This document shows, one piece after another, positions 9,534 through 51,347 of a DNA stretch of 64,000 nucleotides (position 1 is its first letter; each line of letters starts with the position of its first letter). The stretch covers positions 1 through 64,000 of the forward strand of contig NZ_JADHZD010000003.1 of NCBI RefSeq assembly GCF_020102855.1. Reading direction: 5' to 3'. The notes below the pieces were generated by a model, which saw only the letters and a list, made by a program, of their open reading frames with translations, was not told the origin of the DNA and did not search any database. The translations under genes and the position numbers were made by a program. This DNA comes from Nocardioides lacusdianchii (lineage in GTDB: Bacteria > Actinomycetota > Actinomycetes > Propionibacteriales > Nocardioidaceae).

Positions 9534-9576
9534 GTCGGCCTCCTCCGGTCGTGACGCTCGTCGGACATCCGGAGCC

Positions 9577-15002: not shown

Positions 15003-15586
15003 AGCGCCGCCGCCATCGAGGCGCAGCCCGGGACCTGCCACCGGTGACACGGGAAGTCCACCGGCCCACGCTGGTCCGCGATGACTGCGACCGTGTCGAT
15101 CGGCCAGTCCAGGCGCCCCTGACCGTCGAGGACTGCGGCCTCGGATGCGTCGGAGTGGTTGGGTCGCACCAAGCCCACACAACTGAGATTGGCGCCGAGC
15201 AGCGTCTGGCCGGTGAGGTTGTTGCCGCCATGAGAGGTCAGGATCGTCGTGCCCGTTCCCAGCGGCAGCAGGGCGAGCTGCTCGTCGTCGATGAGGTCCA
15301 TGTCGTCGATCACCACCAGGCAGGTTCGGCGGCGGCAGGCGCGTCGGACTTGGCGATGTAACTGGTCGGGACGCTCGACGCTGCAGCGAAGATCGGCCCA
15401 CTCGCTGGGTGTCTGGGCATAGACGTGCGCGTGCCGCGCTGTGTTGGCCAGCCACCAGCGGGTGAGGTAGCGCGCGGTGGTGGTCTTGCCCCGCCCGACG
15501 TCGCCGACCAGCAGCAGCGTTCGCGGGGTGCTGATGTCGAACCTGGCGGCTTGGCCATCCAAGGTGGTGCCGATGCGTACGTCCAT
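14999..15586 (-). CDS. Small P-loop ATPase of the transfer operon
   Basis: 195 residues. Walker A is LLLVGDVGRGKTTTARYL near residue 25; Walker B is TCLVVIDDMDLIDDEQLALL near 90. A later TILTSHGGNNLTGQTLLGAN segment resembles the sensor region of FtsK/VirD4-type NTPases. ATG 15586 is favoured because the P1 motif places a transcription start at or next to it and there is no Shine-Dalgarno sequence. Its role is unknown; a minimal FtsK-like or coupling-accessory ATPase is plausible. First gene of the P1 operon that includes the coupling protein. Confidence 0.65.
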   Translation of the reverse strand: MDVRIGTTLDGQAARFDISTPRTLLLVGDVGRGKTTTARYLTRWWLANTARHAHVYAQTPSEWADLRCSVERPDQLHRQVRRACRRRTCLVVIDDMDLIDDEQLALLPLGTGTTILTSHGGNNLTGQTLLGANLSCVGLVRPNHSDASEAAVLDGQGRLDWPIDTVAVIADQRGPVDFPCHRWQVPGCASMAAAL

Positions 15587-23154: not shown

Positions 23155-24696
23155 CTAACCTGCCGCGGCGATCGCGTCGTTGGTGTACGTGAGCTTCTTC
23201 TCCAGAGGCGTCAGCAGGGTGTGCACCTTGTACCGCTGGTCGCCGACCATCCACAGGGCACGGCCCTTGTCCTGCATTGCCCAGCCGGTGATCACGCCCT
23301 GCTGCATCTCTGAGAGGCCCATCAGCTGGCCGAGCTCGTCGGCGACCGACTCGTCTTGCCCCATCAGGATGCGGACGTCGGAGAGGCTGAGCAGGTCCTT
23401 AGCGATCTGGGCCGCCTGGCTGCCCTGGTCGCCGGCCGACAGCGGGTCCGATGGCTTGTGGTAGGTCACGATCTGGATGTCGCCCTCGGTGCGGGAGAGT
23501 CGCAGGTTGGAGTCCAGCGCCATGACCGCGTCCAGCGACAATCGGGTCTGCAGCCACGCCTCGTCGCGGAGCACGATCCGCCGGTCGCCGGCCGACGCTG
23601 TCTCCCGCATGCCTTGGCCCCACGAGTTGAGACACATCAGCGCGATGCCGACGGCGACCTTGTTGCCGGTCTCGTGCAGCGACCGCAGCGACAGCGTCTG
23701 GATCGGGGCACGCCAGTCGGGGCGATAGGTCGACTCGGTGTCGAACATGCCCTGCAGCGACCCCTCGCACAGGGCACCTAGAGCGTCGCGCAACGGCCGG
23801 GTGCCGTCGAAAAAGTCCTGCTCGGAGGAGTAGCGGCAGTCCGCGACCAGGTCCTTGCTGGGCGAGTCCAGCGCCGCCCACACCTGGGGAATGGTCACCG
23901 GCTTGAGCTGGGAGGCGCCGGCAGACCAGCCGGTCAGGTGTCGCAGGACCTTGTTGATCACCCGCTCCTCGGTCGGGGAGAACGTCACGCCCTGGGAGCC
24001 GACCAGGCCGCGGATCAAGAAGAGCCAGCGGTTGAAGATCACGGTCGCGCGGCGGTGCTGCTCCTCGCGGGTCTGCTTGTCCCAGTCCACGCCGAGCGGG
24101 CCGAAGTCGAGGGGGTTGATCCGGCCGGCGAGGCCGGGGCCGATACGGAACGGGTCGACGCCGAGGAAGCGGGCGAGGTCCTCGTACTCGTCCTTGACGT
24201 CGCCAAGCACCAGGGACCGGTAGCCGTAGCGGATCATGCGGAGCATGAACGCCTTGACGGTCGCGGACTTACCGCGGCCCGGCTTGCCGAAGATGAAGAT
24301 GTTGGGGTTGGTGACGGGGATCGCGTCGTCGAGCACCCAACCCATCGGGTCGCAGTAGAACTTGCCGCCCGAGAGGGCGTCGTAGCCCATCTCCGCGCCC
24401 CATGGCGGGAGCCCGTCCCCGGAGATCAGTGGCCACAGGACGGGGGTCTCCTCCGACGTCATCTGATAGCCGGCCAGCGGCGGCAGACTCGCGGCCCAGC
24501 CGTGCCCCATCCGCCGTACCCCCTTGGGCTTGACCGAGCCGGGGAACAGCTTCTCCGTGGGCAGCTCCGCCGCGGGCGGCAACTTGCGCGGCATCGTGGT
24601 CCCGAAGTCCGCCAGCAGGTCGTCGATCGTCCGCGACGCCGCGCCGGGGTTCTTGGCGCCGCCGCGGGCGCGGCTCCTGGTCGACGCCACGCTCAC
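23155..24696 (-). CDS. VirB4-like secretion ATPase
   Basis: 513 residues from GTG 24696, whose GTGA overlaps the previous stop. It powers assembly and substrate transfer in type IV secretion. Walker A is FIFGKPGRGKSATVKAF near residue 135; a Walker B/VirB4 signature is RRIVLRDEAWLQTRL near 385; LGDVKDEYEDLARFLG and RINPLDFGPLGVDW are typical of actinobacterial VirB4 homologues. The N-terminal part is short (about 130 residues before the P-loop; VirB4 of proteobacteria is about 800 residues in all), so this is the compact actinobacterial form. It once probably led directly into the hydrolase gene now separated by the nested module. Confidence 0.88.
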   Translation of the reverse strand: MSVASTRSRARGGAKNPGAASRTIDDLLADFGTTMPRKLPPAAELPTEKLFPGSVKPKGVRRMGHGWAASLPPLAGYQMTSEETPVLWPLISGDGLPPWGAEMGYDALSGGKFYCDPMGWVLDDAIPVTNPNIFIFGKPGRGKSATVKAFMLRMIRYGYRSLVLGDVKDEYEDLARFLGVDPFRIGPGLAGRINPLDFGPLGVDWDKQTREEQHRRATVIFNRWLFLIRGLVGSQGVTFSPTEERVINKVLRHLTGWSAGASQLKPVTIPQVWAALDSPSKDLVADCRYSSEQDFFDGTRPLRDALGALCEGSLQGMFDTESTYRPDWRAPIQTLSLRSLHETGNKVAVGIALMCLNSWGQGMRETASAGDRRIVLRDEAWLQTRLSLDAVMALDSNLRLSRTEGDIQIVTYHKPSDPLSAGDQGSQAAQIAKDLLSLSDVRILMGQDESVADELGQLMGLSEMQQGVITGWAMQDKGRALWMVGDQRYKVHTLLTPLEKKLTYTNDAIAAAG

Positions 24697-25109
24697 CACT
24701 CCCCCGCCGTGCGGGCCGAAGACGTCGAGCGGCGGGGCGCCCACGCGAGTGGGTCGATCGCGCCGCCCGCGACCAAGGGCAGGACCGGCGTGAAGGCTGC
24801 CGCCTCGTCGAAGATGACCGACGGCCCGAACCGGCGCCGACTCGCGTCGGTGTGAAGCTCGCGCACCAGCGCGGTCTTGCCGTGTCCGGGCTGCCTGCGC
24901 CCCTTACCCGAGCCGGGCTGCCCGAGCACGAACGTCTGCGGTCCGAGCATCAGGCCCCGACGACCCAGGTAGGGGTCGTGCCACCACGTTCGGGGTGTGG
25001 GCACGGGGCGCGTGGTGGCCATCTCGTGCAGGTGGCCTCCCAAGGGCCGCTGCGTGCTCCTGGCCGGGTAGGTCCTCGAGCGCGACGACATCATGGGCAT
25101 TTCCTTCAT
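24693..25109 (-). CDS. Short P-loop-like protein before virB4
   Basis: 138 residues from ATG 25109; the internal ATG at 25094/25091 with AAGGAA upstream is an alternative. The core is LGRRGLMLGPQTFVLGQPGSGKG, immediately followed by GRRQPGHGKTALVRELH: two Walker-A-like loops in tandem. Then FGPSVIFDEAAAFTPVL follows. The protein ends by overlapping virB4 (GTGA). Large actinobacterial VirB4-like proteins start with similar sequence, so this may be a split-off N-terminal part with an internal duplication, or a separate accessory protein. Confidence 0.5.
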   Translation of the reverse strand: MKEMPMMSSRSRTYPARSTQRPLGGHLHEMATTRPVPTPRTWWHDPYLGRRGLMLGPQTFVLGQPGSGKGRRQPGHGKTALVRELHTDASRRRFGPSVIFDEAAAFTPVLPLVAGGAIDPLAWAPRRSTSSARTAGEW

Positions 25110-25217: not shown

Positions 25218-26756
25218 TTAGCGTCGCTTGCGGGGCAGGCCCGCCCCCAAGGGGATGGCGGACACGGCGAACGCCGCGTCGTGTGCCCCATCGAGAGGAA
25301 GAGGTGTGAAGCCACTGATGCGGATCGACGCGTCGAGACGGCGGCCGAAGTCCTGCACGTTCCACTCCGCCGGGACCGTCACCGACACCGCGGAGGACAC
25401 CCTGACCAGGGAGCGGCCACTCTCCAGCTTCTCGTCGCGCTCGTGCAGGTTGCCGACCGAATGCCGGTCCTTGGCCCGCCCGACCACGCCGGCCTTCTCG
25501 CGCAGCGTGCCGGCCATCACCGCCGACATCTGCGCGCGACCGGTGGTCCGGTCTGCGGCTTGCTGTGAGACCGGCCGGTAGAACACGGTCAGCGCGCGTC
25601 GCTCTCCGGGCTGGGAAGGCACCAGCACCCGGGCCAGTGCACCCATCCGGGCACCCTTGCGGGGCAGCAGGATGGTGGAGGAGATCGACTCCCACTCACC
25701 GTGCCGGTAGGAGCGCAGCGCTGTCGACGCATGGGTGGGACCTGCGGCGCCGACCGGGACACCGGCCGCGATCGAGGGGTTGTCGCGGTGGTGGATCGCG
25801 GCGTCCGCGAGCGCGGGCGCATCGCCTGGCTCGAACCCGGTGCGAATCGCCACGGCGAGCTCGGAGCTGTCGAGCCAGTTCACCCGCGTGCAGCCGATCG
25901 AGCCGGTCAGCCGGGCCTCGACCTCTGCCAGCACCGAGTACAGAATGCGCGCCCGACCGATCACGCCGCGTCCGGCGCGCTTGGCGTCCTTGTTGATGAC
26001 GTCCTCACGAACCACCACGGTCACGAACGCTTCGCGTCGCACCGCCGCCCCGGCGGTCATCGCATCGAGCTGGTCGTTGACCTGGGCCGAGACCCGCGGC
26101 TCGTCGGTGCGGGCGTTGTGACGCACCCACTCGGCCCGCTCGGTGCCATCGTCGGGGACGGTGCGAACCTGCACCACCACCAGGTCGATCTGAGTGCCTG
26201 CGGTGGCGGCCTCCATCATCTCGGTCAGCCCGGCACCCATGCGGAACCGGTCCGCGTCGTCGCTCATCCCGATACCGGGGTGGACGATCCGTGCGGTGGC
26301 CGCCCAGGTGCGAGTCGCGTGGTTCTGGATGATCGCCGGCCGGGCGGTCTGCCCCGTCATCGGCGGGCCGTCGTGGATCTGGATGCCGGCCAAGATCCCG
26401 GGAAGGTCCGCCTCCCCGGCGTCGCCGTCGTCCTGGTCGTTCTCGCCGTCGCCGAGGTCGAGGTCGCCGGCAGCGGCCTTGGACTGGAACCGCGACCACC
26501 CGAACGCTGCCCCCGCCAAGTGCCGGAACAGGACCCCGATCCACTGGAACGCCGAGTGGCCGCGGATCGGCAGGCAGATCAACAGACCGACCACGCCCCA
26601 CAGCGGGACGAGGACGAGCAGCGTCACCCACTGCCCGATGGCGATGGCCATCCAGGTCGGGAACCCGGCGGCCAGGATCAGGAAGAACTGAGGGCCGGTC
26701 AGCCCGAAGAGCCAGGCTTGCCTGTCTCGCGTCGCTGATGCTCCGTACACGCTCAT
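25218..26756 (-). CDS. SCO6880-family T4SS protein
   Basis: 512 residues from ATG 26756, overlapping the upstream stop (ATGA). Two adjacent N-terminal helices (residues 12-55: GPQFFLILAAGFPTWMAIAI and TLLVLVPLWGVVGLLICLP) have the PrgI/VirB3 pattern. A large soluble domain follows, with DDADRFRMGAGLTEMMEA near 180 and VFYRPVSQQAADRTTGRAQM near 395. This architecture is the SCO6880 family found in actinobacterial integrative elements next to VirB4. It probably combines a VirB3-like anchor with the part of VirB4 that precedes the ATPase domain, which fits the short VirB4 above. Confidence 0.8.
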   Translation of the reverse strand: MSVYGASATRDRQAWLFGLTGPQFFLILAAGFPTWMAIAIGQWVTLLVLVPLWGVVGLLICLPIRGHSAFQWIGVLFRHLAGAAFGWSRFQSKAAAGDLDLGDGENDQDDGDAGEADLPGILAGIQIHDGPPMTGQTARPAIIQNHATRTWAATARIVHPGIGMSDDADRFRMGAGLTEMMEAATAGTQIDLVVVQVRTVPDDGTERAEWVRHNARTDEPRVSAQVNDQLDAMTAGAAVRREAFVTVVVREDVINKDAKRAGRGVIGRARILYSVLAEVEARLTGSIGCTRVNWLDSSELAVAIRTGFEPGDAPALADAAIHHRDNPSIAAGVPVGAAGPTHASTALRSYRHGEWESISSTILLPRKGARMGALARVLVPSQPGERRALTVFYRPVSQQAADRTTGRAQMSAVMAGTLREKAGVVGRAKDRHSVGNLHERDEKLESGRSLVRVSSAVSVTVPAEWNVQDFGRRLDASIRISGFTPLPLDGAHDAAFAVSAIPLGAGLPRKRR

Positions 26757-28156
26757 GCTAGGAACGCTCCATCTTCAATGGCTTCTGTGGCCACGGGCTT
26801 GATGTCGTTGGCGATGCCGTCGCCGTTGGTGTCGTTGAAAGGCTTCGACGTGTGCCCCTGCTCCTGACCCTGTCGGGACGAGCCCTGCTTCGGGGAGCCC
26901 TGTCGTCTCTGCTTGGGGTGGTGCTCGGTGGGGTAGTAGCCCTGGTTGCCGATCCCGCTCTGACCCAGCACGTCGACGCTCATCGAGGCGCCGGCTTGGG
27001 CGACCTTTCCGGTCTTCTCCATCGCGCCGGCGACGACGCCGCCGACCGCGCCGCCGACCTTGGAGATCTTCGAGGACTGCCAACGGTTCGCGTTCTCCGC
27101 CTCGGCGCCGTTCTCCGAGGTGGTGCGCCCGTCCGAAGAGGTCTCGCTGGCGGCACCGGAACCCGAGCCGGCCGCCTGGGCGCCGGCGCCCTTGCCCTTC
27201 ACCAGGCCGGCAACGCCGCCGTTGGCGTCCATCGTCGAGCGGAACGAGGCACCCGAGGCGGTGCCGGGGTCGACGAAGGCCAGCAGCCGGAACAGCACCA
27301 TCGGCATGAAGCAGGCCACCAACATGATGATCGACCCGATCACGGACATGCCGATGTTCTCGGCGCTGGAGGAGGCCCCGTTCCCGCTGCCGTCGGGCAT
27401 GCCTGCCCAAGCGAACTGGGTGCCCACCCCCAGCACCAGCGCCAACAGCGGCTCCATCAGCACGCACGCGATGAACCAGCGGATCGACTTCCACATCCAC
27501 GACTTCGTGCCCTCAGACAAGGCTCCGGCGGCCGCGATCGGCATGGTGGCAACGAGGATCAGCAGCGCGGCGGACCGCACCATCATGATCACCATGTGCC
27601 CGAAGGCCGCCGGGATCAGGATGAACAACGAACAGATCCCGAGCGTGGCTGCCGCCACGCTCCCCGAGACAGTGTCAACGAACCCGTCCCCGGCCGCGTA
27701 TCCGGAGAAGCTGTCGACGCCGAGCAGGGTGTCCAGGATGCCCTCGGTGAGCCCGGACGCGGCTGCGATGAGCCCCGCAGAAACTCCTACCCAGCAGGAC
27801 AGCACGACGCCGTACTGCACGACCCCTGCAGCAAGGGTCCCGAACCCGCGGCCGTCCTGCCGCAGAACCGCTAGGCCGATCTGTCCGAACGCCATCACTA
27901 GGGCGATGACCAACGAGACCCACAACGTGACCGAGTAGAGCTTGCCCAGGTCGGGGTCGGCGACGTTGGGGGTGAAGTTGTCGATCAGCCCGAAGGCCGT
28001 CTTGAGCAGCCACATTCCGGCCGACCAGATGCCCATCATCATCGAGGTGAACCCCTCGGCCAACGCTTCCTTGGCCTTGCCGCCGAGCCACTTCAGGGGG
28101 TTGAGGCTGAACATCGGGACGATGGTCACCACATGACCCATGGCCTGACTCATCAT
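26753..28156 (-). CDS. VirB6-like polytopic membrane protein
   Basis: 467 residues from ATG 28156 (the next codon is also ATG). After MFSLNPLKWLGGKAKEALAE come about seven helices up to residue 330, including LWVSLVIALVMAFGQIGLAV, ATLGICSLFILIPAAFGHMV, LLILVATMPIAAAGAL and SVIGSIIMLVACFMPMVLFR. WMWKSIRWFIACVLMEPLLA is the conserved tryptophan-rich region of VirB6/TrbL-like proteins. The last about 150 residues are polar, glycine- and glutamine-rich and end near a D-rich TNGDGIANDIK segment that resembles a calcium-binding loop. A channel component of the inner membrane. Confidence 0.78.
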   Translation of the reverse strand: MMSQAMGHVVTIVPMFSLNPLKWLGGKAKEALAEGFTSMMMGIWSAGMWLLKTAFGLIDNFTPNVADPDLGKLYSVTLWVSLVIALVMAFGQIGLAVLRQDGRGFGTLAAGVVQYGVVLSCWVGVSAGLIAAASGLTEGILDTLLGVDSFSGYAAGDGFVDTVSGSVAAATLGICSLFILIPAAFGHMVIMMVRSAALLILVATMPIAAAGALSEGTKSWMWKSIRWFIACVLMEPLLALVLGVGTQFAWAGMPDGSGNGASSSAENIGMSVIGSIIMLVACFMPMVLFRLLAFVDPGTASGASFRSTMDANGGVAGLVKGKGAGAQAAGSGSGAASETSSDGRTTSENGAEAENANRWQSSKISKVGGAVGGVVAGAMEKTGKVAQAGASMSVDVLGQSGIGNQGYYPTEHHPKQRRQGSPKQGSSRQGQEQGHTSKPFNDTNGDGIANDIKPVATEAIEDGAFLA

Positions 28157-28971
28157 GACTGCGGCACCTCCAGCCACTGGTAGCCGGCGTCGAAGGAGGC
28201 CTGGGAGCCTGGCCACAGCGAGGGAGCCGGTGCGGGCTCATCACCGGGGCCGATCATCCAGCGGCCCTCGTGCCAGACCATGCGCTGGCAGTCGGCGGCC
28301 GCGACCTGTTGCGGCTGTCCCCCCGCGATGGTGGCGGTGATGATGAAGTCGATGCACGGGACAACGAAGTCATCTCCGACCGTGCCCTTGATGAACCCCA
28401 TCTTCGGCTCAGCAGCGATGGTGATCGTGTTCTTGGCATCCGAGGACATGCCAGCCGACTCCAGCAGTGCGGCCACCGCCTGCACACCCGTCCAGCTCTC
28501 GGGCGTCGGACCGCCCGGGGTTGCCCACTGCGTGATGACGTCCTGGGCGACCCGGACTGAGGCGGAGCTCAGCGCGGTCGTATCGATCGCGGCCAGCTGG
28601 GCCAGCGCCCCTTCCGGGGTGTGCGGGAACCCGGTCGCCACGCCCAACTCCCCCACCTCCATCGGTGCAGGGATCTCGAGCGTGCCGGTGGTGCCCGATG
28701 ACAGGCTTCCGGGCTGAGCGGCCTCCAGCGGCGCCTCGGGCAGCTGCTTGCCGGCGAGCTGGTCGTGGGCTGGCTGTGCCGACCCCGACCCGGTGCTCTT
28801 GTCGGTGGAGGAGCCGGTGAGCATCCCTACGACCGACCACACGCCGCCCGCCACCAGGGCGAGGACGACGACAGCGGCTACCCCCAGCACGAGCTGCAGC
28901 CTGCGACGGTTCCACTCGATGTCGGGGTCGACCAGCCTGGACTGGTAGACGTCGCGGGAACGCCTCAGCAT
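28153..28971 (-). CDS. Single-pass T4SS protein, VirB8/TcpC-like layout
   Basis: 272 residues. A short cytoplasmic N-terminus (RDVYQSRLVDPDIEWNRRRL), one helix (LVLGVAAVVVLALVAGGVWS, residues 28-47), a low-complexity linker (60-105) and an exported domain with one Cys pair (FVVPCIDFI and AAADCQRMVW). VirB8 and TcpC share this topology with an NTF2-like fold; sequence similarity to them is not obvious to me. Its stop overlaps the VirB6-like start. Confidence 0.55.
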   Translation of the reverse strand: MLRRSRDVYQSRLVDPDIEWNRRRLQLVLGVAAVVVLALVAGGVWSVVGMLTGSSTDKSTGSGSAQPAHDQLAGKQLPEAPLEAAQPGSLSSGTTGTLEIPAPMEVGELGVATGFPHTPEGALAQLAAIDTTALSSASVRVAQDVITQWATPGGPTPESWTGVQAVAALLESAGMSSDAKNTITIAAEPKMGFIKGTVGDDFVVPCIDFIITATIAGGQPQQVAAADCQRMVWHEGRWMIGPGDEPAPAPSLWPGSQASFDAGYQWLEVPQS

Positions 28972-31723: not shown

Positions 31724-34700
31724 CTACCCGGTGGCGCCCCACTCCCGTTGCTCAACGATGGTCTCCGAGCGCAGCGGGAGGTCCTCGTCGAAGAGGTCGA
31801 GAACCTTCTCCCGGACCAGCTCGCCAGCGGCGTCGCGGCCGGATTCTGCCTCGGTCGCCGCGGCCTGATCCAGCCAGGGGATGTCGCTGTGCGGACTGGC
31901 CTTCCGCGCCGCGTCGCAGGCTAGCCGGACCAGGTCGGTGCGACCTTCCGCGATCGCTCGCGTGGCGAGCACGTGGGCTGCGTCATGGATTGCGCCGACC
32001 AGGATCTCGTCATGGCGCTGCTGGCCAGCCTGGAAGAGCCACTTGAAACGGTGCTCGCTGGCGGCCTCAAACGGGGCGCCGGTGACCAGGGATAGGGCGG
32101 TCAGCAGGTCCTCCTCGCAACCGTGGTCGCCGCGCTTCTGAGCCCGGAACTTCAGCCGCACGAACAAGTCTGCGCTGGTGAGCACCCCATCGAAGTCTCG
32201 GACGAGCTCGTAGGTCGGGCTGGTGCCTCGCCGGGCCCCTGCGCTCATGCTCGCGTCCGGCAACCAGTCGGTGCCGTCGGGTCGCGTGCCCAGCAGCGAC
32301 CGGGCGTTGGTCGCGCGGTTCTGGACCGTCTTCTGGGTCTTCCACCCGAAGGCAGCGGCGACCCGCTCGGCTGTCACTCCGTGGTCCTGAACGGCGAGAT
32401 AGGCGATGAAGGAGACGGTGCCGCTGAGGTTGCCGATGGCGCTTGGGTCACCTCCGTTGAGCGACGTCACCTCGACCGGTCCCAGCAGGTGCACCTTGGG
32501 TCGCGAGGAGGACTCGTCGAACCAATCGGCGACGTCCTGGTCCAAGGTCGGGTCGAGTGCATCGATCTCCGCGCGGATCTCCGCCGGAACGCTGGGCGCC
32601 CCTGCGGCGAGGTCCTCCGGGGTCGTTGCCCCCGTCGCCATGTAGATCTCATCGGCCTCAGGCAGCTGCGAGGTCGGGTCGTTGCCCTCGGTGTGCCGGG
32701 GCTCGGTGTACTCCTCGCGCAGCGCCCCGTCGGCACGGGCGTACTTGCCCAACGGTCCGTCATCGGACTGGGTTGCCGGCACCGGCTCGTCCTCAAGGTT
32801 GCGGGTGGCGGTGAGGAGGTCCGCCATCGGTGCCGCGTGCTCCGGCTGGATCGTGAACGCCTTGACACTGATCCCCCACATTGGCAGGAACGCCATCCCG
32901 TCGAGGCCCAGTTCCACCACCGGGGACTCCTCGTCGCCGTGCACCAGCACCACTCGGGACCGGTCGCGAGGTTCGATGTCTGAGATGAACTCGCCCTCGG
33001 GTCGGGAGGCCAGGACCATCACCACGGGGTGGGCGGTGTCCAGGAGCAGCCCGTCGCGCCGACGGGTCAGCACGTCGGCGTTCAGGTTCTGCTCGACTTC
33101 ACCCATCTCGCTGGTGAGCACAGCAGCGCGGGCCAGGGCGTCGCTCCGCTTGACCTGACGGAGCCGTCCCGGGTTCATGCGAATTGCCTCGGCCGCGAAC
33201 TCGTCAGCCAGCAGCACCTCGCAGCCCTCGGCCCAGTCGTTGACGGCCAGCTCGGCCACCATGAAGCGGATCAGGTCGGCGACCTGCTGCGGCTCGCCGC
33301 CGATGCCGCACATGCCCAACGTCTCCAGGTCGACCATCCAGGTGCGGCCGCTCTCGTCCAGTCCAACGCTCACGAGGGCGGGGTACGGAGCGGGCTGGGT
33401 CTCCAGGTCCTCCTCGAGGAAGGTCTCGCGCGGCAGGATCCACGCGCGCGCGTCCTCGGTGGCCGTCCAACCCCCTGGCACCTCGCGGGTGGCGGAGTGG
33501 GTGAACAGCAGGGTCAGGTCTTCCTCGCCAAGTACTGCGGCTCCCAGCTGTGGCAGAGGGCTGCCCGTCGCCTTGCAAGAAGCGGACACGTGCCGCAGTG
33601 CCCGGTCGAGGAACTCGACGTCAGCTTGTGCGTTTGCGCCGCTTTCGACCAGTGCTTGCTCCACCTCCGTGAGCTCGTCGGGCGTCGAGGCGATCGTCCG
33701 CCCGATCCGGCGGCTACGGAACTGACGACGACGGTTCGCTGCTAGTAGTCCCAAGGAACCCACTGAGAGACATACCGCGCTCGCAAGCAGTGCCCGCAGC
33801 GCGGTCATCTCACCCTCGTCCTCGGACTCGCCGACCTCGGCCGGGACCTGTTCCGAGAGGCGGGGGTCTCCCTGCTCCACCTCTGCCTGCGGGACGGCCG
33901 GACTAACCGAGGCCGAAGGAGCCGTCGAAGGAACCGGTGGCTGGTCCTGGCCAGCCGCATGGTCTGTGCTGCCCCTGTGTGCCCCGCCTTGCCGCTCATC
34001 AATGGCGTTGCCGCTTGAGCCGTCCGCGTCGTCCCGCTGACGCCCCCGGGACTGCGGAAGATGATCCTCGATTGGATTGACGGCACCGGCGCCCGGCAAC
34101 ACGAGCACCTGACCGGGACGAATCAGGTCCGGGTCGCCTCCGACCACGTCCTCATTGGCCTTGTAGAGCGCCTCCCAGTTGTCCGCGTCGCCGGTGGTCT
34201 CCCGCGCGATCTCCGACAGGGTGTCGCCCGGTCGCACGGTGACCGCGCCCATGTCGGGCCCCGCGCCTTCGGCCGGCACGCGCAGTTCCCAGCCTGGCTT
34301 GATGTGATCCGCAGCCACGAAGGTGCTGCCGTCGTTCATGGTGAGCCCTCTGTTGAGCTCTGCGATCTCTGGCCACCGAGCACCGTCGCCTAGGTGGCGT
34401 TCCGCGATGGACCACAGCGAGTCCAGCCGCATCACCGTCACCTGGGCAGTGCCGTGTTCCCGCTGCTGCTGCGAGGTGTCCTCACTGGCCCGACCTCGAT
34501 CCTGCTCGGCTGCAGCCACCTGCGCGTGAGCACCACTGGAGCTGGCAGCGGGTGTGGCGCTGTTTGTCGTGAGAGCCCCACCGCTGGCCGTCGCCGCTGT
34601 AGCGACGCCGGCGGCGACGGGCGTAGCCACGGTCGCGATGACCACAGCGGTGATGAGTCGCCGCGCGAGGTGCTGCTGCACACCGAGCGCGAAGGGCACC

Positions 34701-34948
34701 TCGAGCCGGACACGATCGTCGGTGAGGGCGGCCATCGCCTCCACGGCGATGCATGCCATCAGCTGGGCCCACAAGATCCACACGACGACGGCAAGAAGGC
34801 CAACGATCGCGCCATCGGTGAGCGGCGCCGACAGCGAGACGCCCTCGGCCGGCCAAGGGTTGCCGATGTATCGGAGCAGCGCCCACGGCGGGCCGACAAC
34901 GAGGGCAGCCAACACGCCCCCTGCTAGCAGTGCCTTGATGTGTCGCAT
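31724..34948 (-). CDS. Membrane LysM-BTAD protein of the Tad locus
   Basis: 1074 residues from ATG 34948 (AGAGAGGA upstream). Three N-terminal helices (about 5-25, 45-70, 105-130), then two LysM-type modules: VMRLDSLWSIAERHLGDGAR near 180 and VTVRPGDTLSEIARETTGDA near 245, with the DLIRPGQVLVLPG end. Another helix (ALLASAVCLSVGSLGLLAAN) is near 390. A large cytoplasmic region ends in a BTAD/SARP-like domain (KVHLLGPVEVTSLNG, TAERVAAAFGWKTQKTVQNR, ELVRDFDGVLTSADLF). LysM binds peptidoglycan; BTAD is found in activators. It may sense wall state for pilus expression. Such fusions are typical of actinobacterial Tad loci. Confidence 0.78.
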   Translation of the reverse strand: MRHIKALLAGGVLAALVVGPPWALLRYIGNPWPAEGVSLSAPLTDGAIVGLLAVVVWILWAQLMACIAVEAMAALTDDRVRLEVPFALGVQQHLARRLITAVVIATVATPVAAGVATAATASGGALTTNSATPAASSSGAHAQVAAAEQDRGRASEDTSQQQREHGTAQVTVMRLDSLWSIAERHLGDGARWPEIAELNRGLTMNDGSTFVAADHIKPGWELRVPAEGAGPDMGAVTVRPGDTLSEIARETTGDADNWEALYKANEDVVGGDPDLIRPGQVLVLPGAGAVNPIEDHLPQSRGRQRDDADGSSGNAIDERQGGAHRGSTDHAAGQDQPPVPSTAPSASVSPAVPQAEVEQGDPRLSEQVPAEVGESEDEGEMTALRALLASAVCLSVGSLGLLAANRRRQFRSRRIGRTIASTPDELTEVEQALVESGANAQADVEFLDRALRHVSASCKATGSPLPQLGAAVLGEEDLTLLFTHSATREVPGGWTATEDARAWILPRETFLEEDLETQPAPYPALVSVGLDESGRTWMVDLETLGMCGIGGEPQQVADLIRFMVAELAVNDWAEGCEVLLADEFAAEAIRMNPGRLRQVKRSDALARAAVLTSEMGEVEQNLNADVLTRRRDGLLLDTAHPVVMVLASRPEGEFISDIEPRDRSRVVLVHGDEESPVVELGLDGMAFLPMWGISVKAFTIQPEHAAPMADLLTATRNLEDEPVPATQSDDGPLGKYARADGALREEYTEPRHTEGNDPTSQLPEADEIYMATGATTPEDLAAGAPSVPAEIRAEIDALDPTLDQDVADWFDESSSRPKVHLLGPVEVTSLNGGDPSAIGNLSGTVSFIAYLAVQDHGVTAERVAAAFGWKTQKTVQNRATNARSLLGTRPDGTDWLPDASMSAGARRGTSPTYELVRDFDGVLTSADLFVRLKFRAQKRGDHGCEEDLLTALSLVTGAPFEAASEHRFKWLFQAGQQRHDEILVGAIHDAAHVLATRAIAEGRTDLVRLACDAARKASPHSDIPWLDQAAATEAESGRDAAGELVREKVLDLFDEDLPLRSETIVEQREWGATG

Positions 34949-35010
34949 CGTTGTTGTCCTCTCTGTCGAACAGGCTGTCTCCTGGCACGCCGTGGCGCAC
35001 ACGGCCCGCT

Positions 35011-36661: not shown

Positions 36662-37561
36662 TCAGATCCCCATCACCGCGACGACCGCGGGGAACCCAAG
36701 GAAGAGCACGAAGCCGATGAACAGCACCACCTGCGCCATCTCCATGGACTGATCCGCCTTGGCCGCGGCGCCCTCGGCCTCGGCCAGCTGGCGGCGTCGT
36801 TGGGTGGAGGCTCGGGCCGTCAGCGACTGGCGGACCTTGGCGCCGTCGTCGGCGACCAGCATCAAAGCCCCGCCCAGGTCCTGGAGCTCCTGCATGCCTG
36901 TGCGCTTGCCCAGGTCGGCTAGCGCCGCCCATGGGGTGTCTCCGACCAGGCGGGCGCGGTCGATCGTCGAGCGCAGCAGCTCGAAAGCCCATCCCGTGCC
37001 GATCCGCGCCGCCGTGGGCAGAGCCTCGGGGATGCCGCGGCCACCGGCCAGCGACATCGCCACCAGGTCGAGGTAGCACGACAACGCCCGACGCAGCTCG
37101 TGCCGCCGCTGCTCAGCCGCCTGGACGACCGACAGGTCGGGTACCCAGAAGAACAGTGCACCGAGCGCGAGGCCACCGACCGCCGGCACCGTCAGCGGAG
37201 GGGTCACCCCGACCGCCATCATGGTGACGGTCAAGATCGTCGGCAGCAGCAGCCCGAGCAGCCCGTAGGTCATCTTGCGGACCAAGTGCCCCTCGAGGGT
37301 GTAGTCGGTCAGCTCGAGGTCGGCGCGCAGCTTGCCGAGCGTGATGCCCCGTTGCGCGAGCTGCGCAACCAGCCAACGCCCGAGCCGGCCCTGCCAGCTG
37401 GTGTCGTCGACGTCGAGCTCAACGACTGCGGCCTGGCGGGCCCGCTGCCGCTCCCACCGGCCCACGACGCTGGCCAACGCCGGCCGGGGCGGCACCAGAG
37501 CGAACACCAGCAGGCACAGCGAGGCGCCCAGGGCGGCACCGAGGAGAAGCCCGAACGTCAT
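36662..37561 (-). CDS. tadC: TadC-like inner membrane platform protein
   Basis: 299 residues of the GspF/T2SSF family. Helices at about 3-22, 100-150 and 275-297. The cytoplasmic part carries RRALSCYLDLVAMSLAGGRG and EALPTAARIGTGWAFELLRS, with LQDLGGALMLVADDGAKVRQ, matching TadC. With TadB it forms the platform on which the TadA ATPase acts. ATGA overlap with tadB upstream. Confidence 0.88.
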   Translation of the reverse strand: MTFGLLLGAALGASLCLLVFALVPPRPALASVVGRWERQRARQAAVVELDVDDTSWQGRLGRWLVAQLAQRGITLGKLRADLELTDYTLEGHLVRKMTYGLLGLLLPTILTVTMMAVGVTPPLTVPAVGGLALGALFFWVPDLSVVQAAEQRRHELRRALSCYLDLVAMSLAGGRGIPEALPTAARIGTGWAFELLRSTIDRARLVGDTPWAALADLGKRTGMQELQDLGGALMLVADDGAKVRQSLTARASTQRRRQLAEAEGAAAKADQSMEMAQVVLFIGFVLFLGFPAVVAVMGI

Positions 37562-38460
37562 CGGGTCCCACCTCCAGCAAGCCCGGGCTGCAACGCCGCG
37601 TCGACCTGGTCGACACCGACCAAGAACCGCTCAGGCGGGCGCAGGTTCGCCGCGGACCTGATCCACATCAGGCCACCGGCGAAGACCGCGAGCACGACCG
37701 CGAGCATCAACTGGCCCAGCGGAGTGGAGTACGGGGCGACGTAGTCGCGGGAGAACACCGCCATCCCGCCCGCGAAGATCGCGGTGGCACCGACGATGAT
37801 CAACGCGGTCCGGCGCAGACTCTTGCGGCCCTCCTCGATCCGACGTCGCATGTCGACCTCCTCGCGTGCCGCGCTCGCCAGGGCGGTGAGGGTGGCCACC
37901 AGGCCCGGGCCGCGCAGCTTGGAGTTGAGGATCAGTGCCGCCACGACCAGGTCGGCGGAGGAGTCCTCGAACTCCTCCGCGAACGCAGCCAGCGCCTGGG
38001 TGAGCGGGATCTGCACTCGCAGACGTCCCTCGAGCCGCTGGAGCGCCGGCTGGAGCACTGGCGGTGCGGCAGTCAGGGAGTGCCGGATCGCGTCCTCGAG
38101 TCCCACCGACCCGGCGATGGAATCACGCAGCGACTCGGTCCACGTGGCCAAGGCCTCGACCCGCTCGACCTGCCCGGTCGCGGTCTTGCCGCCGCCGAAC
38201 ATTGTGGGCCACAGGTAGATCACCGCGGCGGCCGCGCCTGCGGCTACGGGCCACCTGGTGAGGACCGCGACCAGCACCGCGACGCCGAGCGCGATGAGCG
38301 CACGTCGACGGGCCGCGCTGCCCCACAGCGCGTTCCCGCGACCCTTGCTGGCTCGCGTCCGTGTCGGAGGCCGCCACCCCATCAGGGCCGCGGCCAGGAG
38401 CAGGATGCTGCCACCAAGCGCGAGCCCAAGCAGAAGACCAGAGACCGCCGTCAGGGACAT
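37558..38460 (-). CDS. tadB: TadB-like inner membrane platform protein
   Basis: 300 residues from ATG 38460. T2SSF domain in the middle (VEALATWTESLRDSIAGSVG, LEDAIRHSLTAAPPVLQPAL, AEEFEDSSADLVVAALIL), flanked by helices near 10-30, 65-95, 230-250 and 260-280. Partner of TadC. Six bases separate its start from the tadA stop. Confidence 0.88.
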   Translation of the reverse strand: MSLTAVSGLLLGLALGGSILLLAAALMGWRPPTRTRASKGRGNALWGSAARRRALIALGVAVLVAVLTRWPVAAGAAAAVIYLWPTMFGGGKTATGQVERVEALATWTESLRDSIAGSVGLEDAIRHSLTAAPPVLQPALQRLEGRLRVQIPLTQALAAFAEEFEDSSADLVVAALILNSKLRGPGLVATLTALASAAREEVDMRRRIEEGRKSLRRTALIIVGATAIFAGGMAVFSRDYVAPYSTPLGQLMLAVVLAVFAGGLMWIRSAANLRPPERFLVGVDQVDAALQPGLAGGGTR

Positions 38461-38465
38461 ACCGC

Positions 38466-39764
38466 TCACCACCCTCCGGTGCTCGGCTGCTGCCACCCGG
38501 CGGCAGCCAGGTAGTCCAGTCGTTGCGGAGTGGTGCCGGTCCAGGTCGCCGACCCGTGCGGGCCCGCGGAGAAGATCTCCGAGGCCAGCACCGAGTCTTC
38601 GTAGCCGTTGACCTCGAGGATGGAGTCCAGGCGCCGCTTGCCGGTCTTGGGGTGGCGGCTGATGAACACCACATAGTCCAGGCCGCCGGCGATGAGCCGG
38701 AACGATGCCTCGTGCGGGAGCCGCTCTTGGGACTGAATGGCGTAGGTGGCGATCCGTTCGAACACCTCGCGTGAGCTGCGTGCGTGGATCGTCGACATCG
38801 ACCCGTCGTTGCCCTGTCCCATTGCGTTGAGCATCTGGACGATCTCGGGGCCGAGGACCTCACCGACGATGACCCGATCGGGCGCCATGCGCAGGGTGCG
38901 CCTCACCAGGCGGTCCATGCCGATGTAGCCCTGGCCCTCGGAGTTGGCCAGCCGCACCTCCATCGGCACACAGTTGGGGTGCCGGTCCTCAAATTTGTGC
39001 AGCCCAAGCTCGAGCGCGTTCTCCACGGTGACGATGCGTTCCTCGGGCCCGATCTCGGCCGCCAGAGCCCTGAGCAGGGTGGTTTTCCCACTCTTGGTGC
39101 CGCCGGCGATCATGATGTTGAACCGGGCCTGGACGATCGCGCGCAGGAAGTCGGCGGCCTCATCGGTGATCGTGTCGTTGCCGACCAGGTCTGCCAGCTC
39201 GGCCTTCTCCCAGCGGTGTCGACGGATCGACACCGACGGCCACGGGGCGACGCCCATGACCCCCGACAGACGCGATCCATCCGGCAGGGTGAGGTCCAGC
39301 TCCGGGTTGGCGGCGTCCCAGGGCCGCGAGTTCAGGCCGGCGTACGCAGCCAACCCCTGGATCACTTCGATCAGTTCCTCGTCGCTGCTCGCGACCGACT
39401 CAGCAAGCTCCCACGGCGTCTTCGACTCGGCCCGGGACACCCAGACGTTGTCGTAGCCGTTGATCGCGATCTCCTCGATCGACTCGTCGTTCAGCAGCGA
39501 CTGGAGGCGCCCGGCACCGAACATGCGTGCATGCACACCTTCGGCGAGCTCCTGCTCGATCTCGGGGTTCAGCGGAGACTGCCCCACCGCCAGGAGCTTC
39601 TCGGCGTGCTCGCGGATGACGTCAGCGATCAGCCGGCGCGTGTACTGCTGCTCATTGGCGCCGGCCAGCTCGCCCTGGCCGCTGCGAAGCCGCCTCTGCT
39701 GCTCGCGGTGCAACCGGTCCCCGACCTCGCGGTGAACGGTGCGAAGCAGATCTGGATCAACCAT
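38466..39764 (-). CDS. tadA: TadA/CpaF secretion ATPase of the element
   Basis: 432 residues. Full-length type II/IV secretion ATPase: N-terminal helical domain, EEIAINGYDNVWV near 95, Walker A IMIAGGTKSGKTTLL near 215, RMAPDRVIVGEVLGPE near 290 (Walker B with Glu), STIHARSSREVFER near 315, and a complete C-terminal domain ending TTPQRLDYLAAAGW. It powers Tad pilus assembly. It is a separate gene from the truncated chromosomal cpaF at 50138-51172. Confidence 0.92.
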   Translation of the reverse strand: MVDPDLLRTVHREVGDRLHREQQRRLRSGQGELAGANEQQYTRRLIADVIREHAEKLLAVGQSPLNPEIEQELAEGVHARMFGAGRLQSLLNDESIEEIAINGYDNVWVSRAESKTPWELAESVASSDEELIEVIQGLAAYAGLNSRPWDAANPELDLTLPDGSRLSGVMGVAPWPSVSIRRHRWEKAELADLVGNDTITDEAADFLRAIVQARFNIMIAGGTKSGKTTLLRALAAEIGPEERIVTVENALELGLHKFEDRHPNCVPMEVRLANSEGQGYIGMDRLVRRTLRMAPDRVIVGEVLGPEIVQMLNAMGQGNDGSMSTIHARSSREVFERIATYAIQSQERLPHEASFRLIAGGLDYVVFISRHPKTGKRRLDSILEVNGYEDSVLASEIFSAGPHGSATWTGTTPQRLDYLAAAGWQQPSTGGW

Positions 39765-45072: not shown

Positions 45073-46466
45073 GTAAGCGTCCCGTGGAGTGGTGGGGTTT
45101 GGGGTAGGACGGCGGGGCTCCGTACGTGAGGGGGCCATCGGCGAGATCTTCGGTGTGAACGGCCAAGCACACATCGAAGAGGAGTTCACCGATGGCCCTA
45201 CCCCAGTCTGCCCTGTCCGAGCTGCTCGAGGCTTTCCGTGCCGGTGACGGCGTGGATCTGATCCGGGAATCGGTCCGAGTGGCGTTGCAGGAGCTGATCG
45301 AAGCCGAGGCGACCGAGAGGATCGGCGCCGCACCGTACGAGCGCGCGGACACCCGCGTGACCGAGCGCAACGGTCACCGACCAAGGGTGCTGTCGACCAA
45401 GGCCGGTGACGTCGAGCTGCGGATCCCGAAACTCCGCAAGGGCTCGTTCTTCCCCGTCATCCTCGAGCCGCGCCGACGGATCGACCAGGCGCTGTACGCG
45501 GTGGTGATGGAGGCCTACGTCCACGGCGTTTCCACTCGCAGCGTGGACGACCTGGTCGAGGCGATGGGCGTGGACGCCGGCATCAGCAAGTCAGAAGTGT
45601 CGCGGATCTGCGCGGGGCTCGACGAGCAGGTCGAAGCATTCCGCACCCGGTCGCTGGAGCACACCGAGTTCCCCTACGTCTACCTCGACGCCACCTACCT
45701 CCACGTCCGCAACGCCACCTCCCAGGTGGTGTCGATGGCGGTCGTGATCGCCACCGGGATCGCCGCCGACGGGTCCCGGGAAGTGCTCGGACTCGACGTG
45801 GGTGACAGCGAGGACGAGACGTTCTGGCGCGGCTTCCTGATCGCGCTCAAACAGCGTGGCCTGCACGGGGTGCGGCTGGTGATCAGCGACCAGCACGCCG
45901 GCCTCGTCAAGGCCCTGAAGCGGTCCTTCCAGGGCGCCGGCCACCAGCGGTGCCGGGTCCACTTCGCCCGCAACCTGCTCGCCCACGTTCCCAAGTCGCA
46001 CGGCGACATGGTCGCCGCGGTGTTCCGCACCGTCTTCGCCCAGCCCGACGCTGAGGCGGTCAGCAACGCGTGGGACGAGGTCCGAGACCAGCTCGCCAAG
46101 TCGTTTCCCAAGATCGGGCCGCTGATGGACGAGGCCAAGACCGAGGTCACCGCCTTCACCGCGTTCCCGCGAGCGCACTGGCAGAAGATCTGGTCCACCA
46201 ACCCCCTCGAGCGGGTCAACAAGGAGATCAAGCGCCGCGCCCGGGTGGTCGGAATCTTCCCCAACCCCGCCGCCGTGATCCGACTCGTCGGCGCGGTTCT
46301 GACCGACATGCACGACGAGTGGCAAGCCGGCGACCGCCGCTACCTGTCCGAAGCATCCATGGCGCTCCTCTACCCCGACAGCGATACTGGTGACATCGCC
46401 GCCATCGACAGCGGCGAGTAGGCACCGAGGATCACCTCAAAGCCCACCACCCCGCGGGGCTCTGCC
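45073..46466 (+). mobile_element. IS256-family insertion sequence
   Basis: About 1394 bp with one transposase gene. Imperfect terminal inverted repeats: in the left end CCCGTGGAGTGGTGGGG begins at 45081, in the right end CCCGCGGGGTGGTGGGC begins at 46458 on the minus strand; about 20 of 25 positions match and weaker similarity extends to both borders. Flanked by a 9-bp direct repeat. The intact repeats and gene suggest a recent insertion. Its right border is only 18 bp upstream of promoter motif P5. Confidence 0.8.
45192..46421 (+). CDS. IS256 (mutator) family transposase
   Basis: 409 residues, full length. RITERNGHRPRVL-like N-terminal region (VTERNGHRPR), KLRKGSFFPVILEPRRR and STRSVDDLVEAMGVD are family hallmarks. 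DDE residues sit in YVYLDATYLH, GVRLVISDQHAGLVKAL and the late NPLERVNKEIKRRARVVGIF region, which carries the Glu. Close in type to actinobacterial IS1081-like transposases. Confidence 0.95.
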   Translation: MALPQSALSELLEAFRAGDGVDLIRESVRVALQELIEAEATERIGAAPYERADTRVTERNGHRPRVLSTKAGDVELRIPKLRKGSFFPVILEPRRRIDQALYAVVMEAYVHGVSTRSVDDLVEAMGVDAGISKSEVSRICAGLDEQVEAFRTRSLEHTEFPYVYLDATYLHVRNATSQVVSMAVVIATGIAADGSREVLGLDVGDSEDETFWRGFLIALKQRGLHGVRLVISDQHAGLVKALKRSFQGAGHQRCRVHFARNLLAHVPKSHGDMVAAVFRTVFAQPDAEAVSNAWDEVRDQLAKSFPKIGPLMDEAKTEVTAFTAFPRAHWQKIWSTNPLERVNKEIKRRARVVGIFPNPAAVIRLVGAVLTDMHDEWQAGDRRYLSEASMALLYPDSDTGDIAAIDSGE

Positions 46467-48529: not shown

Positions 48530-50134
48530 CTACGCGCGGCTTGGCTGAAGCGAGTCGAAAGCCAGGACGCGGCTCGGGACGATGACGACCCGGTCAGGAT
48601 CGAACTTCCGACCACGAACTTCTGCTCGCTTGATAGTCACATCCAGCAGCGTCCGGACGACCTCTCGACGATCGTGAAGGTCGGCGCGGGTCCACCCTTC
48701 TTCGAGCGTGAGCGCAGTCAGCATACGCCGGACCGCTGGCGAGCTCACCGAGGCCGTCTGACTTTCGCGAAGCTCCTCGATCGACGCCTCAATACGCCTC
48801 GTCTCCGCTGCGTAGGCACGCAAGGTCAACGCGCCCTCTGCTCGCATCCCTTCGACTTCGTCGAGCTCGCGTTCCCGCTCGTCGATCAAGGACGCGAGGT
48901 CGGGCTCGTCTCGCCGCTTCTTCTCACGGCGATCGTGCGCTGCAGCAACAGAGGCGATGAAGTCGGGGCGGGCAAATAAGGCGAGAAGGACTGCCTCAAC
49001 ACACTCGTCGACGCGATCAGCGCTCACCGTAACCCGCATGCACCCTTCGTTGCGGCAGGCGTACGCACGAGGCATTCTCGACAGATTCGTAGCCGCTTTG
49101 AGACGGGCGTGGCATTCGCCGCATGTGGCGATCCCGCTCAGGAGGTGGCGGGGTGCAGGACCCCTGGGGTTAGACACGCTCAACCGAGCGGGATCCTTTA
49201 GCAAAGCACGCAACCTCAGCCACGTGCCATGGGGAACTATCGGCTCCCAGGACGCCTTTCCGATGTCTTCGCCGCGATGGATGCGTCGACCGGCGATCGT
49301 CGGATTCAGCAGCAGTTGGCGCAGGGTTGAAGGTTCCCACTTTGTAACAACGCCCATGGGATTCTCTTCCAGCGTTGACCTGCGCGCCTTCCTAGGGGTC
49401 GGTATCCCACGAGTGTTGAGATCGCGACAGATCTGACGCAGAGTCCCGCCATCTAGCAAGGTGTCGACGGCCTCGACCAGTACCACTGCCTCCGGGGAGA
49501 GGGTCCTCGGAACCTCATCACTCAGGACTGGCACGAACTCGCCTTCAGGCGTTCGTGCAGGACTACCCGATGAATCTACCCGCACAAATGGAGTCTGGCC
49601 GACGAGGACGCCGGTGCGAGAGTCGTAGCACCGCCGGAAGCCATACGGGATTCGACCATGCGGACTTCCTCGCATCGCGTTCGTCTCGACACTGTCGATG
49701 TTTCGCTTCTTGATGCGCCGAGCCTCAGCTTCCGCCATAACCCCTTGCAGCACCAAGGGCAGCCAGTCGTCGACCTTCGTCGGGTTATACCGCGTGCCGG
49801 ACACCGCTATCTCGAGACCGTTGTCAGCGCAGGCATTCACAAGACCCATGAATTCCTCAAGATCGCGACTTGACCGCGAAACCTCCCACAAGATTAAGAC
49901 GTCGGCTCGCCCAGCATCGATCAGACCGCGGACCTTCAGAAACCCGTCGCGCTCGCGCGAACCGCGTGACGCTGACTTGTTGTCGTCACGAACTTCAGCG
50001 ACGACGTCGACGCCGTCGCGCTGGGCAAAGCTGCGCCCTCGCTCGATCTGTTTCGACACGCTGGTGCCGCCGCCCTTGGGATCCCGGGAAGCGCGACCAT
50101 AGATGACACCCCGTTCCACGGCACTATAATACAT
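48530..50134 (-). CDS. Large serine recombinase (integrase of the element)
   Basis: 534 residues. N-terminal resolvase domain with catalytic Ser at residue 16 (VIYGRASRDP), EVSRSSRDLEEF and MAEAEARRIKKRN. A recombinase domain follows (GRIPYGFRRCYD, DLNTRGIPTPR, RQLLLNPTIAGRRIHRG), then a zinc ribbon (CGECHARL ... CRNEGCMRV) and a coiled coil (ERERELDEVEGMRAEG). It inserts and, with a directionality factor, excises DNA at attP/attB. The ATG at 50134 is three bases past the truncated cpaF stop; GTG 50119 is an alternative start. No directionality factor is identified. Confidence 0.9.
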   Translation of the reverse strand: MYYSAVERGVIYGRASRDPKGGGTSVSKQIERGRSFAQRDGVDVVAEVRDDNKSASRGSRERDGFLKVRGLIDAGRADVLILWEVSRSSRDLEEFMGLVNACADNGLEIAVSGTRYNPTKVDDWLPLVLQGVMAEAEARRIKKRNIDSVETNAMRGSPHGRIPYGFRRCYDSRTGVLVGQTPFVRVDSSGSPARTPEGEFVPVLSDEVPRTLSPEAVVLVEAVDTLLDGGTLRQICRDLNTRGIPTPRKARRSTLEENPMGVVTKWEPSTLRQLLLNPTIAGRRIHRGEDIGKASWEPIVPHGTWLRLRALLKDPARLSVSNPRGPAPRHLLSGIATCGECHARLKAATNLSRMPRAYACRNEGCMRVTVSADRVDECVEAVLLALFARPDFIASVAAAHDRREKKRRDEPDLASLIDERERELDEVEGMRAEGALTLRAYAAETRRIEASIEELRESQTASVSSPAVRRMLTALTLEEGWTRADLHDRREVVRTLLDVTIKRAEVRGRKFDPDRVVIVPSRVLAFDSLQPSRA

Positions 50135-50160
50135 CCCTTATTGGCTGTTGTCTCCGGCGA
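50135..50160. other. Candidate attachment junction
   Basis: cpaF-like coding sequence (LPLLAGDN) changes here into unrelated sequence ending in TAA, and the recombinase gene starts immediately after. Large serine recombinase genes usually lie next to one attachment site. The crossover dinucleotide cannot be placed without the uninserted site. Confidence 0.55.
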
Positions 50161-51172
50161 GCAGCGGCAGCGTGCACATCTTCACCAGCGCCTCGCGTGC
50201 ACTGTTGGCGTGGAGGGTGCACATGCCCGGCAGTCCCGAGTTGAGCGCCAGCAGCAGGTCGAGGCACTCCGCGGCACGCACCTCCCCGACCAGGATCCGG
50301 CTCGGCCGCATCCGCAGCGCCTCCTTGACCAGGTCGCGCAGCACGATCGCGCCCGTCTGCTCGAGGCCCGCCTGCCGGGTCTGCATCGCGACCCAGTCCG
50401 GGTGGTTGAAGCGGAGCTCGAAGACCTCCTCGGCACTGACCACCCGCTCGCCGCCGGGCACCGCGGCGGCCAGGCAGTTGAGCATTGTGGTCTTGCCGGC
50501 CTGCGTGCCGCCGGCGACGAGGATGTTCATCCCCGCCCGCACCGACGCCTCGAGGAACGCCGCGGCCTGCGGCGTGAGGCTGCCCAGCGCCACGAGGTCG
50601 GACAGCCGGTGCGCGCGGAGGAGGAACTTGCGAATGTTGACGGCCGTGAAGCCGCGCGTGATGCCCTCGAGCACCACGTGGAGACGGTGCCCCTCGGGCA
50701 GCATCGCGTCCACGAAGGGCGTGCTGATGTCGAGACGTCGCCCGCTCGACTTGAGCATCCGCTCGACCAGCTCGTCGACCTGGGCGGCGTCGAGGCGCAG
50801 GTTGGTCAGCTCGTGGCGACCACGGCGCGCGATGAAGACCCGCTCCGGGGAGTTGATCCACACCTCCTCCACCTCGGGGTCGTCGAGGAAGGGCTGGAGC
50901 GGACCGAATCCGGAGACCCGCGCGAGGAGCTCGCCCACCATCGCCTCGTCGTCGGCGATCGGCGCGACGGCACCGGTCAGGCTGAGCTGGTCGTGGTCGC
51001 GGACGACGTCCTCGGCGATGCGGCGTACGACGAGTGCCTCGCGCTGCGGGTCGACGCCCTCGCGCCGCACCCGCTCGCGCACCGACGCGTCGAGGCGCTC
51101 GACGAGGTCGTCGCGCACGGGCGTGCGCTGCTCCTGTCGCGGTCGATCGACCGCCAGACGGTCCACTGCCAT
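50138..51172 (-). pseudogene. cpaF: Chromosomal cpaF/tadA ATPase truncated by the element
   Basis: 344 residues of a type II/IV secretion ATPase. N-terminal domain, EEVWINSPERVFIARRG, Walker A ILVAGGTQAGKTTML near 205, MRPSRILVGEVRAAECLDL and MCTLHANSAREALVKM are all intact. It stops at LPLLAGDNSQ. Family members go on for about 60-80 residues after LLAG(E/D)N. The loss coincides with the serine recombinase gene, so integration into this gene is the simplest reading. The protein is unlikely to be functional. The rest of the chromosomal Tad genes are not in the window. Confidence 0.8.
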
Positions 51173-51299
51173 GGCCTACCTGCTTCCCCGAGATCGTGCA
51201 CCAGGGACGCTACCCAGCAGGACGCGGCCGAAAACAGGTCACCGGTAAAGGTTGTGGACAACCTCAGGACCGGCGGGCCACCCCTCCCCCATCGGTTGC

Positions 51300-51347
51300 C
51301 TGCGTCATACGTTCTCGCACGCATGGGTGCGGGAACGTATGACGCAG
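51300..51347. terminator. Long near-perfect inverted repeat
   Basis: Arms 51300-51320 and 51327-51347 (21 bp, one mismatch) with loop GCATGG, between the response regulator stop and the cpaF start. Good candidate for a terminator of the regulator gene; it has no T-run. The outer part CTGCGTCATACGTT could also bind a regulator. Confidence 0.55.

Follow-up and report, generated by a model that had tools for sequence, protein, structure and literature searches.

The window analysed here is a stretch of 64,000 bases (positions 1-64000 of contig C23, 392,989 bp) from a Nocardioides genome of 50 contigs (G000), in which cpaF is broken beside the gene of a large serine recombinase (LSR; Table 1). 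The cpaF frame has 344 codons and ends ...LPLLAGDN, followed by two codons of the element side (SQ) and a stop, and its match to the T2SSE profile (370 positions) is confined to positions 4-258. A few bases separate the end of this frame from the LSR start codon, and the adjacency of cpaF stop and recombinase start in the original prediction was thus confirmed. In relatives, the intact gene reads on as ...LLAGDNISARFVVPT, and a cpaF frame of at least 424 aa was found in 106 of 150 congeners (among the matches listed). Relatives free of the element carry full-length cpaF and not the 344-residue form. The two junctions mostly agree over the LAGDN codons, with GACAACA common to both, and the crossover lies in or near this block. 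A near-perfect inverted repeat (CCTGCGTCATACGTTC... / ...GAACGTATGACGCAGG) was also seen by eye at window positions 51299-51349, between cpaF and a response-regulator-like gene (51435-52346).

Table 1. Features of the window around the broken cpaF gene (positions on contig C23).
Feature	Position	Strand	Remarks
Inserted ICE-like element, part on C23	1..50137		two ends; remainder includes C5:1 to ~16.3 kb
Mrp-type antiporter genes and Na/Ca exchanger	4871..10878	-	no match in three related elements compared
TraG/VirD4-type coupling protein	13012..15231	-	PF12696 1.8e-24
Protein with Exo_endo_phos and lysozyme-like (SLT) domains	15680..18340	-	domain matches
Tyrosine integrase (Phage_integrase), within element, away from junction	18532..19626	+	domain match
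TraG P-loop (VirB4-like) protein	23155..24744	-	weak Pfam match, PF19044 3.5e-5
TrbL/VirB6-like membrane protein	26753..28216	-	weak Pfam match
LysM protein of transfer block	31724..35002	-	domain match, homologues in related elements
Two element T2SSF (TadB/TadC-like) proteins	36662..38496	-	domain matches
Element T2SSE (TadA-like) ATPase, 35% identical to cpaF query	38466..39764	-	domain match
Mutator-family transposase within element	45192..46421	+	domain match
534-aa LSR, start codon adjoins junction	48530..50134	-	domain matches, junction
Element-side half attachment site, GGGATGT word (C5 side: ACATCCC)	50120..50145	-	by eye
cpaF 5' part, T2SSE ATPase of Tad/Flp pilus	50138..51172	-	truncated after LAGDN
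LAGDN codons and one base, common to both junctions	50146..50161	-	GACAACA identical either side

The C-terminal part of cpaF is absent from the window because the window begins at base 1 of contig C23. When the 87-aa C-terminus of a relative was used as query, one strong match was obtained in the same genome (89% identity, E 1.4e-44), at C5:16349-16603 (+), and it adjoins the remaining half of the attachment site. The C5 frame is foreign ahead of the cpaF part and then reads LAGDNISARFVVPT; 3' of it lie tadB and small frames read by eye as TadE/F/G-like. Joining the C23 and C5 halves gives a single unbroken cpaF frame of 431 codons. That an LSR element inserted into cpaF, as predicted, is therefore borne out by the common core of the two junctions, the full-length gene in relatives and the open joined frame. 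The original prediction had left a choice between an element extending beyond the left edge of the window and a deleted left half. Since the C-terminal part was located on C5 with the matching half site and followed by tadB, the element runs off the left edge, and the deletion was rejected. The element would then take up C23:1-50137 together with the first 16.3 kb or so of C5, which adds up to a minimum of 66 kb, and further contigs may lie inside it; from its two ends we infer that all of C23:1-50137 is one element. For comparison, the halves of cpaF cut at the same position are separated by 135 kb in G022 and by about 131 kb in G108.

In G022, G108 and G160, cpaF is cut where it is cut in the window, each time with an LSR there that is 60%, 61% and 96% identical to the window LSR, respectively. 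Much of the region 23155-42674 has homologues in G022 and G108 at about 28-55% identity, although not for every gene, and in G160 at 94-100% identity, one partial match excepted. The Mrp-type antiporter and exchanger genes had no match in the compared parts of these three elements and on that account are probably cargo. The features shared with integrative and conjugative elements (ICEs) of the type IV secretion type are (i) an integrase and two ends in one target gene, the ends being on two contigs, (ii) a coupling protein matching PF12696, and (iii) VirB4- and TrbL-like proteins, the match of the VirB4-like ATPase being weak. They differ in that an LSR and not a tyrosine integrase sits at the junction here, and in the Tad-like ATPase block of the window element. 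A scan of 24 element proteins from the window yielded no relaxase, and the element is therefore labelled ICE-like. Identity with a known phage or plasmid was rejected, as every record matched was below 60% identity. The LSR belongs to the same family as the serine integrases of actinobacterial phages, with a full-length match to that of Gordonia phage Malachai, but even this best match is only about 34% identical.

Breakage of cpaF is frequent in the genus, sampled here as one genome per species and including draft assemblies, which break at repeats. A C-terminal cpaF query matched 172 of 192 congeners (150 genomes among the matches listed), and 44 of these 150 have an open cpaF frame below 400 aa; the longest short frame is 390 aa and the shortest of the rest 424 aa (among the matches listed). 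Examination of the DNA around all 44 short frames found (i) an LSR beside the junction in 33, (ii) a tyrosine integrase in five, (iii) a decayed gene in one, and (iv) contig edges in five. The LSR usually lies tens of bases from the junction or overlaps it, the distance being about 0.5-0.9 kb in G068, G079, G080, G091 and at one G167 insert. Tyrosine integrases are at the cpaF junction in G024, G106, G176 and G190, and inside the interval, 5.3 kb away, in G097. Around the decayed gene (G168), an integrase was looked for and none found. The contig-edge cases are G031, G048, G076, G144 and G179; G048 was rejected as a split cpaF, being an artefact of two contig ends with 141 identical bases in common. 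Outside the 150 genomes, cpaF is also split with an LSR in G014 and in G092, where, unlike the others, the 3' end of the LSR abuts the N part of cpaF. Among single-contig genomes of known cpaF state, 13 of 43 are split (the 43 being the 49 single-contig genomes minus G001, G072 and G089, which have no cpaF match, and G153, G173 and G123).

The cuts fall near residues 104, 107, 151, 175, 179, 221, 225, 229, 251, 255, 286, 303, 313, 326, 338 and 345 in the numbering of a relative's cpaF. Crossover bases are approximate, and these 16 positions were set partly by eye (in G012, G014 and G058 by eye and with the integrase clusters, the automatic scan having been misled by gapped matches, in G058 probably); the count is given as about 13-16, because adjacent cuts may represent a single site. 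Clustered by single linkage, the 36 junction LSRs (from 33 genomes, with G014 but without G092 and G159) fall into 18 clusters at 50% identity and 16 at 40%. Within any cluster the positions differ by a few residues at most, while three unrelated LSRs share position 313; the LSR start codon almost always faces the junction, from either side. The hot spot is one at the level of the gene, into which at least 18 LSR clusters and tyrosine integrases have entered at these positions. Two insertions are present in G108, G167 and G172, where cpaF lies in three pieces with two LSRs each, and probably also in G159, with three pieces but a single LSR found, and in G132, whose first part was not found.

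The distance between the cpaF parts is smallest in G062 (4.1 kb) and reaches 215 kb in G121 and about 227 kb in G068, the commonest inserts being 4-16 kb. Among 89 hand-picked proteins from 17 inserts, the matches listed include phage capsid, portal, terminase and primase proteins, as well as DNA methylases and two restriction enzymes. Inserts at cpaF are ICE-like, phage-like, satellite-like or of the restriction-modification kind. Phage portal proteins occur in the G176 and G190 inserts. The G129 insert encodes an LSR, a primase, a terminase and a portal-head protein within 15.3 kb (some of its proteins were scanned), a gene set resembling that of capsid-forming phage satellites. In the G063 insert (L104), a second LSR at 5992-7548 lies about 10 kb from the junction LSR, so two elements may be in tandem or nested. 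The cpaF parts of G105 (C1:75631 and C1:1409570; L105, L112) lie 1.33 Mb apart on opposite strands, suggesting that the chromosome was rearranged once the element had inserted.

The Resolvase (PF00239) and Recombinase (PF07508) domains were matched in all 36 junction LSRs, in the window recombinase with values of 2.8e-18 and 1.6e-14, respectively. Y12, R14, S16, R87, R90 and E137 are invariant in this set, S16 presumably being the catalytic serine. A zinc ribbon was matched in 23 of the 36, with C338 and C360 invariant, and the match of the window LSR (7e-5) is below the curated cut-off. From the junctions we infer that the window LSR integrates at the cpaF site. In a comparison without G048, G159 (both junctions) and G168 (both), the mean over 40 junction dyads was 8.60 matched bases; mismatched pairs, themselves not independent of one another, gave 7.09 (sd 1.18). 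A strict dyad search found no arm of 10 or more bases in G000, G022 or G108. In inserts with tyrosine integrases (G024, G190 and G176; L062, L079/L101 and L113), a common GCAGGTCAG word occurs near both junctions and is perhaps an integrase arm site.

The phenomenon extends beyond the genus. Among 197 genomes of Nocardioidaceae, at least 23 short cpaF frames lie outside Nocardioides (among the matches listed). Twelve of these 23 were examined: nine have an LSR adjoining or overlapping the junction, G259 has a tyrosine integrase about 0.5 kb away, and G239 and G275 have none at the junction. At class level, 14 short frames were found outside the family among the matches listed, mostly in fragmented assemblies. 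Taken together, it is practically certain that site-specific insertion by the LSR broke cpaF at the LAGDN codons in the window and that cpaF is a hot spot in the family.

The concentration of LSRs at cpaF was compared with their distribution over whole chromosomes. In 48 of the 49 single-contig genomes, PF07508 gave 44 matches in 27 genomes, and ten of the 44 are at cpaF junctions (G012, G036, G063, G069, G079, G092, G117, G121, G129 and G159). The remaining matches include one more inside the G063 insert and two at tadB (G023 and G025). Random placement would give about 0.01 match at cpaF (~1.3 kb of some 4.4 Mb), a figure that indicates scale and is no test, because LSRs are not randomly placed. 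That many unrelated integrases, on inserts of about 4 to about 227 kb, enter one pilus-motor gene, each at a different place, implies that loss of cpaF is tolerated and may favour the element.

Insertions into competence genes provide a parallel. Elements in comK, comYC, comFA and comM have been modelled as gaining from the disruption of these genes, and comFA has two sites whose integrases are 34.1% identical (PMC4774983). As there, elements with their own integrases disrupt a coding sequence linked to DNA uptake and unrelated integrases converge, in the present case 18 LSR clusters and tyrosine integrases; unlike there, the target is a Tad pilus ATPase in Actinobacteria, whose role in transformation of the host is assigned by analogy, and some 13-16 positions lie in one gene. 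LSR targets have also been reported as enriched in competence genes, and many LSRs per gene were described for a magnesium chelatase/ATP-dependent protease gene and a prolyl isomerase gene (PMC10083194). Diverse LSRs share a target gene in both studies, but the prolyl isomerase gene has one conserved site, whereas cpaF has about one position per cluster; the words 'pilus', 'secretion' and 'T2SS' do not occur in the main text of that paper (PMC10083194). No report of cpaF or Tad genes split by integrases was found in the open-access literature searched, although the pattern may be described in other papers or supplements.

A link between the Tad pilus and DNA uptake has been described in Micrococcus luteus, where deletions in both tad clusters abolish transformation, with the exception of tadB of tad-1, which gives a more than 100-fold drop (PMC4322843). 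Changes in tadA1/CpaF are also among the mutants with transformation defects (PMC8467076), and Nocardioides cpaF is the putative counterpart of tadA1. For Nocardioides itself no transformation assay was found in the open-access literature, only the work on M. luteus. Equipped with a 534-aa LSR, the element (66 kb or more) inserted at the LAGDN codons and broke cpaF; by analogy, DNA uptake dependent on the Tad (Flp) pilus would be blocked. Such uptake would allow homologous recombination to delete the element, which the broken pilus would prevent, and unrelated elements would converge on cpaF because its loss helps them. Blocked uptake is the likeliest reason for the convergence, with about an even chance of being correct; the presence of ComEC in 184 of 188 congeners speaks for it. 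Somewhat more tentative is the wider proposal that cpaF sites evolved independently in several tyrosine integrases and in 18 or more LSR clusters because loss of the pilus protects the inserted elements from being removed by transformation. If true, Tad-dependent transformation would be widespread in Nocardioidaceae, revealed by insertions before any assay. A direct test is opened of whether the Tad pilus takes up DNA in soil Actinobacteria and whether breaking it protects the element, and the LSRs with mapped targets are possible DNA-insertion tools.

Several results speak against blocked uptake. ComEC, which M. luteus likewise needs for uptake, measures at least 509 aa throughout the matches listed, with no short frame there. 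Co-loss of comEC and cpaF was considered and rejected, since ComEC is retained in 18 of the 20 genomes that lack a cpaF match. No short cpaF occurs in the 19 genomes outside the family that have ten or fewer contigs (among the matches listed). Five genomes outside the ComEC listing (G021, G076, G153, G158 and G172) have two weaker ComEC matches each, as if split or frameshifted, and G021 and G172 also have a split cpaF.

The strongest competitor, although unlikely, is that cpaF is a passive landing pad: a dispensable gene with motifs conserved in its DNA, which offers stable sites and brings the element no benefit. The 16 sites do lie in better conserved DNA (40-bp windows 0.8455 conserved, against 0.8201 at random positions within residues 100-348; p = 0.0016), as this reading predicts equally well, and most split halves keep open frames, so the loss of cpaF could be both recent and neutral. 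As a measure of decay, taken relative to the closest relative with an intact gene, median pN/pS was 0.343 in split genes (n=53) and 0.247 in intact ones (n=96), values read with the caution that pS is high (median ~0.33) and that the split set included other genera. Conservation tells where in cpaF the sites fall, not why cpaF is preferred to tadB or to paralogues. The most conserved window of tadB (0.878) is nearly equal to that of cpaF (0.889), yet tadB, matched in 169 of 188 genomes with no frame below 284 aa among the matches listed, was found split in three genomes only, near residue 230. An LSR overlaps the junction in G023 (L224) and G025 (L225) and lies about 2.9 kb off in G178 (L228); G081 has two tadB matches. 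Paralogous T2SSE genes (about 36-47% identity) are never short among the matches listed, with none below 393 aa. The three unrelated LSRs at position 313 also argue against a merely passive target.

Tad-type pili are used by phages in other bacteria. A resident element might therefore shut an entry route for phages or rival elements by breaking cpaF, and the several inserts that are phage-like or satellite-like would gain by excluding rivals. This explanation is improbable, given the genomes with two cpaF insertions, in which the first insert did not exclude the second. Less probable still is a reversible switch, in which excision of the element in certain conditions would restore cpaF, like the phage regulatory switches of active lysogeny. 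The 431-codon open gene given by the joined G000 halves resembles such systems, and most split halves have no internal stop, but the joined frame is no test of a switch, because excision after site-specific insertion always restores the frame, and inserts so varied, with sizes of 4 to about 227 kb, do not look like a tuned switch of the host. Finally, the original prediction had pointed to the element bringing in another TadA, and its T2SSE ATPase and two T2SSF proteins might suggest that it removes the host enzyme to take over the pilus with its own; this was rejected as very improbable, since that ATPase is 35% identical to the cpaF query and sits in a transfer block whose genes recur in the related elements of G022, G108 and G160, and the commonest cpaF-splitting inserts are 4-16 kb.
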